Origin: Geomonas azotofigens
GTDB taxonomy: Bacteria > Desulfobacterota > Desulfuromonadia > Geobacterales > Geobacteraceae
Direction: 5' to 3'
Assembly: GCF_018919395.1 (NCBI RefSeq)
Contig: NZ_JAHLME010000010.1
Location: 1 to 64,000 of the forward strand
Length of the DNA: 64,000 bases
Position numbers and translations under genes: made by a program. Below are positions 30,881-37,954 of the stretch, piece after piece (the first letter of the stretch is position 1; every line of letters starts with the position of its first letter). The notes under the pieces are model-generated. The model had not been told where the DNA came from and did not search any database. It saw nothing but the letters and a program-made list of their open reading frames with translations.

Positions 30881-33517
<2,637 letters not shown>

Positions 33518-33550: not shown

Positions 33551-35650
33551 TCAGGCGAGCGCCTCGCGCACCTTGGCGGCCAGCTCCGGTATGGAGAACG
33601 GCTTCTGGATGAAATGGACGCCGTCTTCGAGCACGCCGTGCTGGGCGATCAGGTCCGCGGTGTAGCCGGATATGAACAGGCACCTAAGCTCCGGGTTCTC
33701 GGCCTGAAGGAGCCCGGCGAGCTCGTGGCCGTTCATGCCGGGCATGATCACGTCGGTGATGAGGAGGCTGATCTTCCCGGGATGGGTCCTCGCCAGCTTC
33801 ATCGCCTCTTCGGGGGAGGTGGAGGGGAGCACGTGGTACCCCTGCTTGCCGAGCATCATGGTGACGATGTTCAGGATGGCGCTCTCGTCCTCGACCAGCA
33901 GGATCGTCTCCTCGCCGGACGATGGCGGTTCCGGGGAGGGGAGGGGCTCCTGTAGCTGCTCGTCCTGGTGGCGTGGCAGATAGACCGTCACCGTGGTACC
34001 TCCCCCCACCTTGCTCTCCACGTCGACCCAGCCGCCGTTTTGCCTGGCGACGCCGTAGACGGTGGCAAGCCCGAGACCGGTACCGGCACCCACCTCCTTG
34101 GTGGTGAAGAAGGGCTCGAAGGCGTGGGCCAGTATCTCGGGCTCCATGCCGCAGCCGGTGTCGCCGATGCTGATCCGCACGAAGTCGCCGGGGTGGATCC
34201 CCCGGCCGGCGCTGTGCATCCCGTCCACGACGCAGTTGGCCGTCTCGATGACGATGCTCCCCATCTCCGGTATGCTGTCGCGCGCGTTGACGCAGAGGTT
34301 GGCGAGGATCTGGTCCACCTGGGACGGATCGACCAGCACGTGCCACAGCTTCGCCCCGGGTTTCCAGACCAGTTCGATCCGCTCTCCGATCAGCCTTTGC
34401 AGCATGCTCAGCATGTGCCCCACCGTCTCGTTCAGGTCGAGCACCTTCGGGCAAACGGTCTGCTTGCGGGCGAAGGCGAGCAGCTGCCGGGTGAGGTTCG
34501 CCGAACGTTCCGCCGCCTTCCTGATCTCTTCGAGCCCGGCCTGCAGCCGGTCACCCGGAGGGAGGTCCATGAGCGCCAGGTTCGCATGCCCGAGGATGAC
34601 GCTCAGCATGTTGTTGAAGTCGTGGGCGACGCCTCCCGCCAGGCGCCCGACCGATTCGAGCTTCTGCGCCTGGATCAGCTGCTCCTCCAGCCTTTTCTTC
34701 TCCTCTTCCGCCTTCTTGCGCTCGGTGACGTCGGTGGCCATGACCAGGAGCACCCGCTTCCCCTTGCTCACCCTCCCAAGCGGCGTGGTCTGGAAATCCC
34801 AGGTGCGCGTCGAGCCGTCCCTGGCCCTGAAGCTCCACTCCCCGTTGTACTCGGTCTTTTCGATGGCGAAAAGCCCCCGCAGGTACTCCATGGTGTCGGT
34901 GCTGCGCTCCCCGAAGGCTGCCGCGGCCCACTGTTCGAGTGTGGCGATCTCCGACATGGCGTACCCGGAGAGCCTGGTCCATCCGGCGCTCAGCTGCAGC
35001 ACCCGCCCCTCCTCGTCGCAGATCATGATGGGGTAGGGGGAGCTGTCGACGGCCACCTGAAGCAGCGCCTGCGCCTCGCTGAGCTCGGCGGTCCGCTCCT
35101 CCACCCGCCGTTCCAGGGCGAGCGCCTGCTGCTCGATGACGCGAAAGGCGACGGCGTTTTTCAGGGCGAGGGCGATCGGGGGGGAGAGGAGGGAGATGAT
35201 CTGGTTCACCTCCTCGATGCGCTGCAGCGCGTGCAGGTCGAAGAGGAGCAAAAGGCCTATGGTCTCGCCGGCCGCCACCAGGCGGCAGCGCATCAGGGAG
35301 CGGATCCCCGCGCGGTGCAACGGGGCGTAGAGAGGGTGCCGCTCGTCGAACTGGTCGGGGGTCAGGGGGAGCTGTTCGGGAAACCGCTTGCAGCAGAACA
35401 GTTCCAGCTCCTCCGGGGTGAACAGGGAGGCCCGGCGCTGCGGGCTCACGGTCAGGACCTCGTGCATCGGCGAGCGCGTCTCGTCGTGCAGCAAAACGAT
35501 CACGGTCCTCGCCCCGGTCAGCTCGCGCAGGTGCTCGGTCAGCACCGCGCCCAGTTCGCGCGGGGACGACGAGACGAGCAGCTCCGAGATGACCTCGACG
35601 GCCATGAGCTGTGCGGCGGGCGAAAAATCCCGGCTCTCTCGCTCCTTCAT
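33551..35650 (-). CDS. Soluble hybrid sensor kinase (GAF-PAS-HisKA-HATPase-REC) of the corrinoid operon
   Basis: 699 residues from the ATG at 35650 (GGGGAG upstream): GAF-like domain about 15-175 containing several cysteines (CC at 86-87, C122), PAS about 190-315, HisKA with H343 (GVAHDFNNML), HATPase (GAGTGLGLA) and a C-terminal receiver with D633 (LLITDVIMPG). There is no membrane segment, so it senses a cytoplasmic signal. Its start codon overlaps the stop of the DUF1638 gene (ATGA), so it is the last member of a coupled four-gene operon with a corrinoid protein and a UroD-like protein. That coupling suggests it reads the methylation or redox state of that system. Confidence 0.85.
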   Translation of the reverse strand: MKERESRDFSPAAQLMAVEVISELLVSSSPRELGAVLTEHLRELTGARTVIVLLHDETRSPMHEVLTVSPQRRASLFTPEELELFCCKRFPEQLPLTPDQFDERHPLYAPLHRAGIRSLMRCRLVAAGETIGLLLLFDLHALQRIEEVNQIISLLSPPIALALKNAVAFRVIEQQALALERRVEERTAELSEAQALLQVAVDSSPYPIMICDEEGRVLQLSAGWTRLSGYAMSEIATLEQWAAAAFGERSTDTMEYLRGLFAIEKTEYNGEWSFRARDGSTRTWDFQTTPLGRVSKGKRVLLVMATDVTERKKAEEEKKRLEEQLIQAQKLESVGRLAGGVAHDFNNMLSVILGHANLALMDLPPGDRLQAGLEEIRKAAERSANLTRQLLAFARKQTVCPKVLDLNETVGHMLSMLQRLIGERIELVWKPGAKLWHVLVDPSQVDQILANLCVNARDSIPEMGSIVIETANCVVDGMHSAGRGIHPGDFVRISIGDTGCGMEPEILAHAFEPFFTTKEVGAGTGLGLATVYGVARQNGGWVDVESKVGGGTTVTVYLPRHQDEQLQEPLPSPEPPSSGEETILLVEDESAILNIVTMMLGKQGYHVLPSTSPEEAMKLARTHPGKISLLITDVIMPGMNGHELAGLLQAENPELRCLFISGYTADLIAQHGVLEDGVHFIQKPFSIPELAAKVREALA

Positions 35651-36237
35651 GCCTGCTCCCCTCCCCGGGCCTCCGCCTCGAGGAGTCCCGCCAGAGCCGT
35701 TTCGAGCCCTATCACCTCCACCCGCCAGGGGAGACCGCTGTAGGCGGAGAAGGCTTCCATCTGCCGGGCGGGAACCGGCACGAGGCCCGTGTCGAGATAG
35801 ACGAGCACGGCGCGGTGCTCGGTGAGTAGGGCGCGCGCGGCGGCGGGATCCGGTCCAAGGGCGCTTGCCATGACCTCCTCCCAGCGCTCCGCCCATTCAG
35901 GGAGCACGAGGAAGGCCTCCTCGCGCATCAGCTCGCGGTAGCGCTCCCTGCCGAGCAACAGCTGGGCGCAGTTGATTGCCTTCACTCTGCCCGCCCCGAA
36001 GTTGCGGGCGAGGTCCAGCATGCCGGCGCAGCAGTCGCCGTACACGAGCACGAGCCGGTCCCCCCCGGCGCGGCGCCGCAGCAGCTCGTCGTTGAGCGTC
36101 GACTCCAGAAGGGGAGGGTTCATGTGCAGGAGGGAGTCGAGAAAGACCAGTTCCCCCGCGATCCTGCCGTCGCGACGCAGCCGCGTCAGCTCCTCGCGCA
36201 GTACGCCGCAGGCGAGCCACACCGTTGCCCCGGTCAC
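35647..36237 (-). CDS. DUF1638 domain protein
   Basis: 196 residues from a GTG at 36237 that overlaps the previous stop (GTGA). The sequence matches the DUF1638 type: VWLACGVLREEL at the start, VFLDSLLHMNPP, LVYGDCCAGM, VKAINCAQLLLGR and a long C-terminal helical part. Cysteines at GDCC and INC are typical of the family. In methanogens and acetogens DUF1638 genes often lie beside corrinoid methyltransferases, and their role is unknown. Here the gene sits between the UroD-like gene and the kinase with 4-bp overlaps on both sides, which argues for equimolar synthesis or a complex. Confidence 0.8.
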   Translation of the reverse strand: MTGATVWLACGVLREELTRLRRDGRIAGELVFLDSLLHMNPPLLESTLNDELLRRRAGGDRLVLVYGDCCAGMLDLARNFGAGRVKAINCAQLLLGRERYRELMREEAFLVLPEWAERWEEVMASALGPDPAAARALLTEHRAVLVYLDTGLVPVPARQMEAFSAYSGLPWRVEVIGLETALAGLLEAEARGGEQA

Positions 36238-37265
36238 GCCCCCTCTCCGGCGCCGGCCGGGTAGCGCAGCACGCTCTCCCTGAGGGCCTTCAGGTTCGCC
36301 GCGGGGGTGTCCCGGGGGAGGTCCCCCCCGGAGTTGGCCAGCACGAAGTGGCCTGCCGGCGCCGCGACCGACAGGCGCTCGAGGGCGATGCGGCCGATCT
36401 CGCCGGCATCGGCTGAGGCGAAGGCGAGGTTGTCCAGGTTGCCGATCAGGTTGAATCCGGGGGGGGAGAGCCGGCGCGACTCGGCGAGGTCGTCCTTGGA
36501 GCCGACGATGGCGCCGACCACCCCGGGGAGCCCCGGGAGGAGGTCGAGGGTGTGGTTCATGCGCCCCCCCGTGCTGCTGATCACCTTGGGGCCGTCGATG
36601 GCGCCAAGGATGCCGGCCAGGTGCGGCAGTATCGCGTCGACGAAGAGCCCGCGCGGCGCGATCTCGGCCGAGGCCATCCCTTCGGTGAAGACGAGGCAGT
36701 CGGCCCCCGCCTGCAAAAGGGCGTTGGCGAAAGCGACCAGGAACCCGGCGCTGTGGTCCAGGAGCCTGGCCGCCTGGTCGGGTTCGAAGAGGACCCCCTC
36801 CATCCAGCATTCCAGCCCGGTCAGCAGCGCGGGGAGGATCCCCGGGCCGGGAAGGACGGCTATCACCGGGACCTCCTCCTTGTAGCACCGGGCGAGCTCC
36901 CTGGTCGCGTCGAGGGCGACCGACAGGCGCGCGGTCGAGGGGGATGGCACCGGGAGGGAGAGCGCCTGGGCGATGCTCCTCGCCGGGTACCGCTTCACGT
37001 TCGGGGTCTGCAGCCCCCCCCAGGCGGTCTCACCGCCGAAGGCCTCGGATATGGCGCTGAAGTCGAAGGGGGCGAGCACGAGGTCGAAGCCGTAGCTTTG
37101 CCGTACGGCCTTTTGGCCGGCAAGGTACGCGGCCGGGTCGCTGTACAGGGTGCGCTGGTCGCAGCCGGTGATCCCGGCTCCGTGGGCGCCCAGCACCGCG
37201 AAAACCGGCAAACGGTCCACCGGGAGTCCCCCCAGGGTGTTCATGACGCGCTGGTAGGAGTTCAT
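36234..37265 (-). CDS. UroD/MtaA-family methyltransferase-like protein lacking zinc ligands
   Basis: 343 residues of the uroporphyrinogen decarboxylase fold, in the branch of corrinoid-dependent methyltransferases (MtaA/MtbA type). Those enzymes bind zinc through His-x-Cys in LHVCGN and Cys in APGCGI. Here the matching segments read VISSTGGRM (S230, T232) and LANSGGDLP (G313), so all three ligands seem to be replaced. It therefore probably cannot activate a thiol such as coenzyme M or homocysteine in the usual way. The ATG at 37265 overlaps the corrinoid gene stop (ATGA). The alignment was made by eye. Confidence 0.75.
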   Translation of the reverse strand: MNSYQRVMNTLGGLPVDRLPVFAVLGAHGAGITGCDQRTLYSDPAAYLAGQKAVRQSYGFDLVLAPFDFSAISEAFGGETAWGGLQTPNVKRYPARSIAQALSLPVPSPSTARLSVALDATRELARCYKEEVPVIAVLPGPGILPALLTGLECWMEGVLFEPDQAARLLDHSAGFLVAFANALLQAGADCLVFTEGMASAEIAPRGLFVDAILPHLAGILGAIDGPKVISSTGGRMNHTLDLLPGLPGVVGAIVGSKDDLAESRRLSPPGFNLIGNLDNLAFASADAGEIGRIALERLSVAAPAGHFVLANSGGDLPRDTPAANLKALRESVLRYPAGAGEGA

Positions 37266-37954
37266 GACACGTGCCCGGACGCGAGGGCGAGTTTCTGCAG
37301 GCGGGTGAAAAGGTGGTCCGCCCCGACCGCGTTTCGGGTCGTGCCGTCGCCCCCGACCTCGGCGACCAGTTCCGGGCGCCAGTTGAACACGGCACCGCCG
37401 ACGGCGAGCTTGATCCGGTCCTTTTGCCCCTCCCTGTCGATCAGGTCGCGCAGCTTCTTGATGTTCAAGGCCGTGGTCTGCATCATCGCCGAGACCCCGA
37501 TGACGCTGGCCTTGACCTCCAGCGCCTTTTCCAGGAACTGTTCGGCCGGCACGTCGTTGCCAAGGTCCACCACCTGCCACCCGGCGGTGCCGAGAAAGAG
37601 CCCGACCGTCCGTCGTCCCAGGCTGTGAAAGTCGTCCTCTATGTTGCCGATCACGGCTACCCCCTTCGGGCCATGCGGCTCCTTCCGCTCGGGAAGGCAG
37701 CGCAAAAGGGCGTCCTCGGCGATCTTCGAGGCGATGAAGTTCTGGGCGAGCGATATCGATTCCCCCTCCCACATCGCGCCGAGCCGGACGATGGCGGGGT
37801 CCAGGATGTCCGTGATGACCCTGGCCGGGGGGATGCCTCCTGAAAGCGCGCTGTCGATGATCTCGGCGGCGCGGGCGCGGTCGGCGTTCATCATCGCGTC
37901 CAGCAACTGCCGGTACAATTCTTCACAATCACATTGTGCACCACGTGATGACAT
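37262..37954 (-). CDS. Corrinoid (B12-binding) methyltransferase carrier protein
   Basis: 230 residues from the ATG at 37954 (GGAGG upstream; an in-frame ATG at 37996 is an alternative start). N-terminal helical cap domain about 10-90, then a Rossmann-like B12 domain with the base-off motif D108-x-H110-x-x-G113 (DFHSLG), VIGVSAMMQTT and AVGGAVFN. This is the MtaC/MtbC type, which carries a methyl group on cobalt. It is the first gene of the operon behind a good sigma-70 promoter. No substrate-specific methyltransferase (MttB, MtaB type) lies in the window, so the methyl donor is unknown. Confidence 0.88.
   Translation of the reverse strand: MSSRGAQCDCEELYRQLLDAMMNADRARAAEIIDSALSGGIPPARVITDILDPAIVRLGAMWEGESISLAQNFIASKIAEDALLRCLPERKEPHGPKGVAVIGNIEDDFHSLGRRTVGLFLGTAGWQVVDLGNDVPAEQFLEKALEVKASVIGVSAMMQTTALNIKKLRDLIDREGQKDRIKLAVGGAVFNWRPELVAEVGGDGTTRNAVGADHLFTRLQKLALASGHVS

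Follow-up and report, generated by a model that had tools for sequence, protein, structure and literature searches.

A candidate cobamide-based sensory input module composed of a corrinoid protein, a UroD-like protein and DUF1638

The window analysed here, a stretch of 64,000 nucleotides of Geomonas azotofigens (contig NZ_JAHLME010000010.1, positions 1 to 64,000), carries on its minus strand four genes in the order corrinoid protein, UroD-like protein, DUF1638 protein and hybrid histidine kinase, each overlapping the next by 4 base pairs (ATGA, GTGA and ATGA in gene order). The first three, hereafter the trio, probably constitute a cobamide-based sensory input module that would set and read the state of a corrinoid cobalt, DUF1638 passing this state to the output protein. 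The module is real, widespread across bacterial phyla and apparently undescribed; the mechanism given below is a proposal. A preliminary description, made from the sequence alone, had already proposed a B12-based sensory system, an idea now supported by the conserved linkage of these genes and by fusions of DUF1638 to output domains; its account of the overlaps was accurate, as were its coordinates and residues. The cluster comprises the following features:

37262..37954, minus strand: corrinoid (cobalamin-binding) protein, 230 amino acids (Pfam B12-binding and B12-binding_2)
37616..37633, minus strand: cobalt-ligand motif D108-F-H110-S-L-G113 (D, H and G invariant among relatives)
36234..37265, minus strand: UroD-like protein, 343 amino acids, lacking the zinc ligands of MtaA/MtbA; candidate methyl-donor:corrinoid methyltransferase or cap
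36327..36578, minus strand: lost zinc-ligand positions S230, T232/G233 and G313 (from alignments)
35647..36237, minus strand: DUF1638 protein, 196 amino acids, GTG start; proposed coupler between corrinoid protein and kinase (from output-domain fusions in relatives)
35968..36210, minus strand: putative DUF1638 metal site C10, H38, C69 and C90 (from residue conservation)
33551..35650, minus strand: soluble hybrid histidine kinase GAF-PAS-HisKA-HATPase-REC, 699 amino acids (Pfam)
35117..35626, minus strand: GAF-like domain at the N terminus of the kinase, proposed to receive the DUF1638 signal (from a profile search)

Conservation of the cluster and exchange of its outputs

Among 248 genomes searched of the class to which the window belongs, 67 contain DUF1638, and we parsed 94 DUF1638 places together with their surroundings. 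Corrinoid and UroD genes lie immediately upstream of DUF1638, completing the trio, in 76 of these 94 places, and 72 of the 76 trio clusters have a kinase, either fused (17) or nearby downstream (55), "nearby" denoting a kinase-domain match at most 2.1 kilobases (kb) from the DUF1638 match, as measured between domain matches and not gene ends. Such a frequency rules out a chance neighbourhood, since in the same loci a gene not belonging to the clusters has a kinase gene next in 26 of 445 cases. Each of the four other trio clusters has its own arrangement: DUF1638 is fused to GGDEF in L069; the second cluster of L055 has DUF1638 and a stretch resembling the part of L069 that precedes GGDEF, with an end that looks like a coiled coil; and the gene next after the trio encodes a PAS-GGDEF protein in L090 and a GAF-PAS protein in L094, both with a kinase match near 3 kb. 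Locus L055 (3734-11802, on one Geomonas contig) contains two trio clusters separated by about 6 kb; the first type has a kinase, whereas the DUF1638 protein of the other lacks a recognised output domain. Among the 18 class places without a full trio, two have a kinase, namely L128, a truncated cluster of the kinase type, and L074, the only one of the 17 places other than L128 with a kinase within 2.1 kb.

The arrangement also recurs beyond the class. Named genomes were scanned with 12 corrinoid proteins, and the best 80 of 341 relatives were analysed. By their record titles, which may err and mostly denote metagenome bins, these 80 represent at least 14 phyla, including Myxococcota, Riflebacteria, Verrucomicrobia, Omnitrophota, Kiritimatiellota, Bacteroidota, Spirochaetota, Ignavibacteriota, Chloroflexota, Nitrospirota, Bacillota, Acidobacteriota and Planctomycetota. 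The trio is present in 75 of the 80, and in 67 of these 75 a kinase is fused or lies within 2.1 kb. Of the eight named trio loci without a near kinase, L166 is an HD_5 fusion, three show a kinase match 2.5-2.9 kb away, and in another three the contig stops no more than 1.3 kb from DUF1638; in the eighth, L168, UroD is fused to DUF1638 and the next gene encodes a PAS-GAF protein that extends to the contig end. Three of the five named loci without the trio end at a contig edge (L167, L197 and L209). Since 19 clusters are common to both sets, the 76 class and 80 named loci amount to 137 distinct ones. The search across genomes for the four-gene order, suggested in the preliminary description, finds a recurrent arrangement in which the trio seldom lacks a signalling partner, and the pattern that would have contradicted it, with the kinase unlinked and the trio beside an MttB-type enzyme, did not appear.

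The window kinase is a hybrid histidine kinase: Pfam recognises GAF, PAS, HisKA, HATPase_c and Response_reg domains, and both the phosphoacceptor H343 and the receiver D633 are present. It has no clear membrane segment, since its highest 19-residue hydropathy mean is only 1.67, in agreement with its earlier designation as a cytoplasmic GAF-PAS kinase with an attached receiver. In 100 of 152 places (class plus named sets, common clusters being counted twice) a match to the GAF-like domain profile directly follows DUF1638, the other 52 having different N-terminal domains or domains missed by this profile; the DUF1638-kinase fusions have a domain of their own, found in 17 proteins. Four further matches to the GAF-like profile lie in open reading frames of the loci searched, two of them following UroD (L161 and L203); within these frames the domain is thus almost exclusive to the clusters. 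Gene fusions also occur as UroD-DUF1638 with a kinase after it (L096) and, in L166, as DUF1638-GAF-PAS-PAS-HD_5. Because DUF1638 is fused to GGDEF or GAF-PAS-HD as well as to kinases, the trio looks like a portable input, and these fusions provide the direct link to signalling that the preliminary description lacked. The convergent neighbour of the cluster (30881-33517, plus strand) encodes a PAS-HisKA-HATPase-REC-Hpt hybrid kinase, whose Hpt domain could act on the receiver of the cluster kinase.

DUF1638 occurs at two places in the genome of the window. The second copy (contig C1, locus L021) keeps the order corrinoid, UroD and DUF1638, and there DUF1638 and a PAS-HisKA-HATPase-REC kinase form a single open frame. 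Two RamA-like genes lie elsewhere in this genome, away from the cluster, and contig C12 holds other UroD genes with an H-x-C motif, some beside nitrogenase-component-like genes. One C12 region (L023, 1320-8807) contains two nitrogenase-component-1-like genes and, after them, a corrinoid protein gene, two H-x-C UroD genes and a RACo/RamA-like gene; we take it to resemble a methylthioalkane-reductase or related cluster.

Sequence and predicted structure of the trio proteins

The corrinoid protein has the B12-binding_2 and B12-binding domains and the DxHxxG motif of MtaC/MtbC/MtgC-like corrinoid proteins, although it scores below the subfamily cut-off (TIGR02370, 116.1 versus 215.3 bits). The motif was correctly described as intact around H110, and its D, H and G are invariant in all 76 class-level and all 80 named relatives. 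In the helical cap, W62 is a Trp in 44/76 class-level and 78/80 named relatives. The cap motif of CarH is W-x9-E-H, which the window protein does not have (N72-F73 occupy the last two positions, where most named relatives have G, N or A and then Y or F); the protein does not show the combination of this cap motif with a DNA-binding domain that marks the CarH type, and the CarH model matches it weakly (40.2 versus a cut-off of 400). A CarH-type photoreceptor is accordingly unsupported.

The UroD-like protein is assigned to Pfam URO-D (2.9e-38), and its predicted fold (mean predicted local distance difference test score, pLDDT, 95.8) has as its closest structural match the Methanosarcina methyltransferase MtbA (4ay7; template modelling score, TM, 0.87/0.89; root-mean-square deviation 2.3). 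Alignment with MtbA places the zinc ligands at S230, T232 and G313, exactly as first noted, and in a MAFFT alignment the first Cys column falls at G233, likewise not a Cys; no intact zinc set, which would have spoken against the loss, was found elsewhere in the protein. The loss is general: Cys is found at either zinc-Cys column in 0/75 class and 0/79 named kinase-linked UroDs, whereas the canonical set is present in 21/21 other UroDs of the class (these counts omit the UroDs of L124, split in two by the gene call, and of L197, at a contig end; the 21 are what is left of 23 once fragments of L124 and L128 are removed). The His is frequently retained by itself (36/75 class and 73/79 named at the column of position 230), and in the named set a Cys occurs within three columns of the first zinc Cys in 10/79 and of the second in 11/79; the UroD of L206 reads H-H-C-G, an H-x-C-like string, without the second Cys. 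Some O-demethylases use an alternative zinc motif, E-x14-E-x20-H, which is absent from the window protein and occurs as a bare string in 9/76 and 12/79 relatives and in 0/23 other UroDs. Near-invariant residues of the kinase-linked UroDs are Q51, D61, N89, P145 and G150, of which Q51, N89 and P145 distinguish them from most other UroDs.

A tree was built from 73 UroDs, comprising 48 kinase-linked sequences (after thinning at 60% identity), 21 others of the class and four from this genome, two of them identical. In it, the 48 kinase-linked sequences form one side of a branch with support of 99/96, recovered in 100% of 200 bootstrap trees. The window protein does not group with HemE, whose branch in this tree is long; the genome has a separate HemE-like gene (C1:609773, 465.6 bits). 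Nor does it belong to the MtaA/MtbA coenzyme M methyltransferases, having lost the zinc ligands and scoring below the family cut-offs (PRK06252, 116.8 versus 244 bits; MtaA, 90.7 versus 400). In MtaA and MtbA, zinc activates the thiol acceptor, and the loss of zinc argues against an acceptor similar to coenzyme M. It does not argue against methyl transfer, since the UroD-fold chloromethane methyltransferase I CdmB needs no zinc and a Moorella O-demethylase is reported as zinc-free (PMC13222342). With this precedent, the absent ligands suggest that the UroD-like protein may be zinc-independent. It shares the UroD fold and the adjoining corrinoid protein with methyltransferases I such as CdmB and MtvB, and O-, S- and halogen-demethylases also belong to the UroD superfamily, according to PMC10418091. 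The original remark that no substrate methyltransferase lies nearby consequently stands only in part: an MttB search of the whole genome gave no match, but by analogy the substrate enzyme thought to be missing may be the UroD-like protein.

The third protein matches DUF1638 (PF07796) with 78.9 bits against a gathering threshold of 27 (5e-22). All of the DUF1638 proteins compared (76 class-level, 75 named and 18 non-trio) have Cys10, Cys69 and Cys90, and position 38 is His throughout these sets except in 17 class-level proteins, which have Cys. The exchange of His for Cys next to three unvarying Cys points to a metal or iron-sulfur site, and the four positions likely form a putative metal site; in the predicted model (pLDDT 95.5) these residues lie at or just past beta-strands in the DSSP string. 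Trp119 is found in 76/76 class-level and 74/75 named kinase-type proteins (one gap), whereas among the 18 other DUF1638 proteins 13 have Gly and 2 have Trp at this position. Foldseek found no solved relative of the model at E <0.001 (best E 0.0069), and TM did not exceed 0.35 among the 50 matches listed. In Phaeobacter inhibens a DUF1638 gene is required for methionine synthesis via the B12-dependent synthase, and across the alpha-Proteobacteria the co-occurrence of this family and a RamA-like protein is nearly complete (PMC5764234). This role implies that DUF1638 probably acts on corrinoid proteins generally, the system described here probably employing it as a link to signalling. One DUF1638 gene (L077, 6603-10266, minus strand) lies between genes for S-adenosylmethionine synthetase and a nitrogenase component 1-like protein.

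Proposed mechanism and alternative explanations

In the mechanism that we propose, the corrinoid protein would carry a cobamide with its cobalt as Co(I), Co(II) or methyl-Co(III). The zinc-less UroD-like protein would set this state, most likely as a methyltransferase I moving a methyl group between some small molecule and cobalt. DUF1638, with its conserved Cys3-His site, would dock on the corrinoid protein, sense the cobalt state and hand it to the GAF-like domain at the N terminus of the output protein, which is a soluble hybrid histidine kinase here and a diguanylate cyclase or HD-domain protein elsewhere. The signal would thus run from the trio to the output, and we infer that it consists of the methylation or redox state of cobalt. 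A more specific version, which we put forward tentatively and at somewhat below even chances, is that these modules are widespread covalent chemosensors: the zinc-free UroD would demethylate a small methyl donor such as a methoxy, halo, sulfonium or amine compound, the DUF1638 site would read methyl-cobalt and the outputs would be interchangeable between phosphorelay and cyclic di-GMP synthesis or turnover.

Several observations weigh against a sensory module with methyl transfer. Loss of the zinc Cys is just as compatible with a UroD-like protein that takes no part in catalysis, and no RamA-type reactivator to regenerate Co(I) is seen in the cluster. A non-sensory role of DUF1638, in methionine synthesis, is documented (PMC5764234), so the presence of DUF1638 alone does not prove signalling. 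L161 and L203 have no DUF1638 match after UroD although their contigs continue, L164 (named set) has an extra frame between UroD and DUF1638, and L113, one of the 55 class clusters with a nearby kinase, has a phosphonate-binding-protein gene between DUF1638 and the kinase. Both L161 and L203 carry a GAF-like domain after UroD. The Desulfoluna-labelled L203 (6624-11765) encodes in order a corrinoid protein, UroD, a stand-alone GAF-like protein and a Cache-HAMP-MCP chemoreceptor, DUF1638 being undetected.

The main rival, in our opinion unlikely, is a sensor of cobamide availability or redox state (holo/apo, Co(II)/Co(I)) without methyl transfer, in which the UroD-like protein would be a non-catalytic cap or scaffold. 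It agrees with the complete absence of Cys at the canonical zinc-Cys columns of the kinase-linked UroDs counted, and the Cys3 plus His/Cys site of DUF1638 could hold a redox cofactor. However, there is a precedent for an active UroD enzyme that is zinc-free, and the conserved residue set, Q51, N89 and P145 being distinctive, together with the intact fold (TM 0.87 to MtbA), exceeds what a scaffold would need.

Far less probable is a catabolic or biosynthetic methyl-transfer operon with its own regulatory kinase, in which the trio would make a metabolite and the kinase would act separately. Relatives of DUF1638 and UroD do occur with RamA-like genes in the class, and catabolic mec cassettes contain a two-component system (PMC9768040). 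Nevertheless, RamA-like genes (search seeds confirmed as RACo by Pfam) occur in only 1/74 trio loci (L112) and 0/80 named loci, compared with 6/18 other loci; they are therefore absent from 73/74 and 80/80, respectively. This, and the lack of a RamA-type activator in the window cluster, does not fit a RamA-linked catabolic methyltransferase operon, just as the genome without an MttB match leaves an MttB-based one unsupported. The fusion of DUF1638 to kinase, GGDEF or HD outputs and the separate grouping of the kinase-linked UroDs also speak against such an operon. A pterin-domain profile made from the MetH-like gene of the genome, aimed at the second methyltransferase (MTII, pterin or MtrH type) of three-component systems, gave no match in any locus, non-trio loci included, in a search without a positive control. 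Finally, a photoreceptor that uses B12 in the manner of CarH or AerR can practically be dismissed: the helical cap with its frequent Trp and the weak CarH match speak for it, but the cap motif is absent, the score is far too low and UroD and DUF1638 would be left unexplained.

Comparison with known systems

We found no description of this arrangement among the papers listed in our literature searches, which largely covered papers outside subscription. The novelty lies in the input module, the kinase and cyclic di-GMP domains being ordinary. If our interpretation is correct, a B12-dependent signalling system assembled from methyltransferase parts exists in many bacterial phyla, offering a route for sensing one-carbon compounds or cobamide state; it would explain corrinoid methyltransferase-like gene sets without a substrate enzyme nearby and would give DUF1638 a testable role as a coupler. 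The catabolic annotation of these genes would then mislead metabolic reconstructions.

Known systems resemble parts of this cluster. The catabolic mec cassette is of a different design: it includes a two-component system, and its kinase reportedly has a PocR domain (PMC9768040). The DUF1638 protein of Phaeobacter inhibens belongs to the same Pfam family but supports methionine synthase (PMC5764234), whereas here DUF1638 shares an operon with signalling outputs or is fused to them; Cys10, Cys69, Cys90 and His38 are also found in the non-trio DUF1638 proteins of the class, the Phaeobacter protein itself being outside our alignment. The three-component systems CdmB/CdmC, MtvB and OdmB similarly pair a corrinoid protein with a UroD-fold protein, zinc-independent in CdmB (PMC13222342); in contrast with them, our cluster has no RamA-type activator, has DUF1638 and a kinase, and its output appears to be a signal and not a one-carbon unit. 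MtaA/MtbA are similar in that MtbA (4ay7) is the best structural match of the UroD-like protein, which, unlike them, lacks both zinc cysteines and falls under the NCBIfam cut-offs. Regulators that bind B12, CarH and AerR among them, likewise use a B12-binding_2 plus B12-binding domain. However, their targets are DNA or a repressor, whereas in the cluster described here UroD and DUF1638 partners intervene and the outputs are kinase or cyclic di-GMP-type domains.

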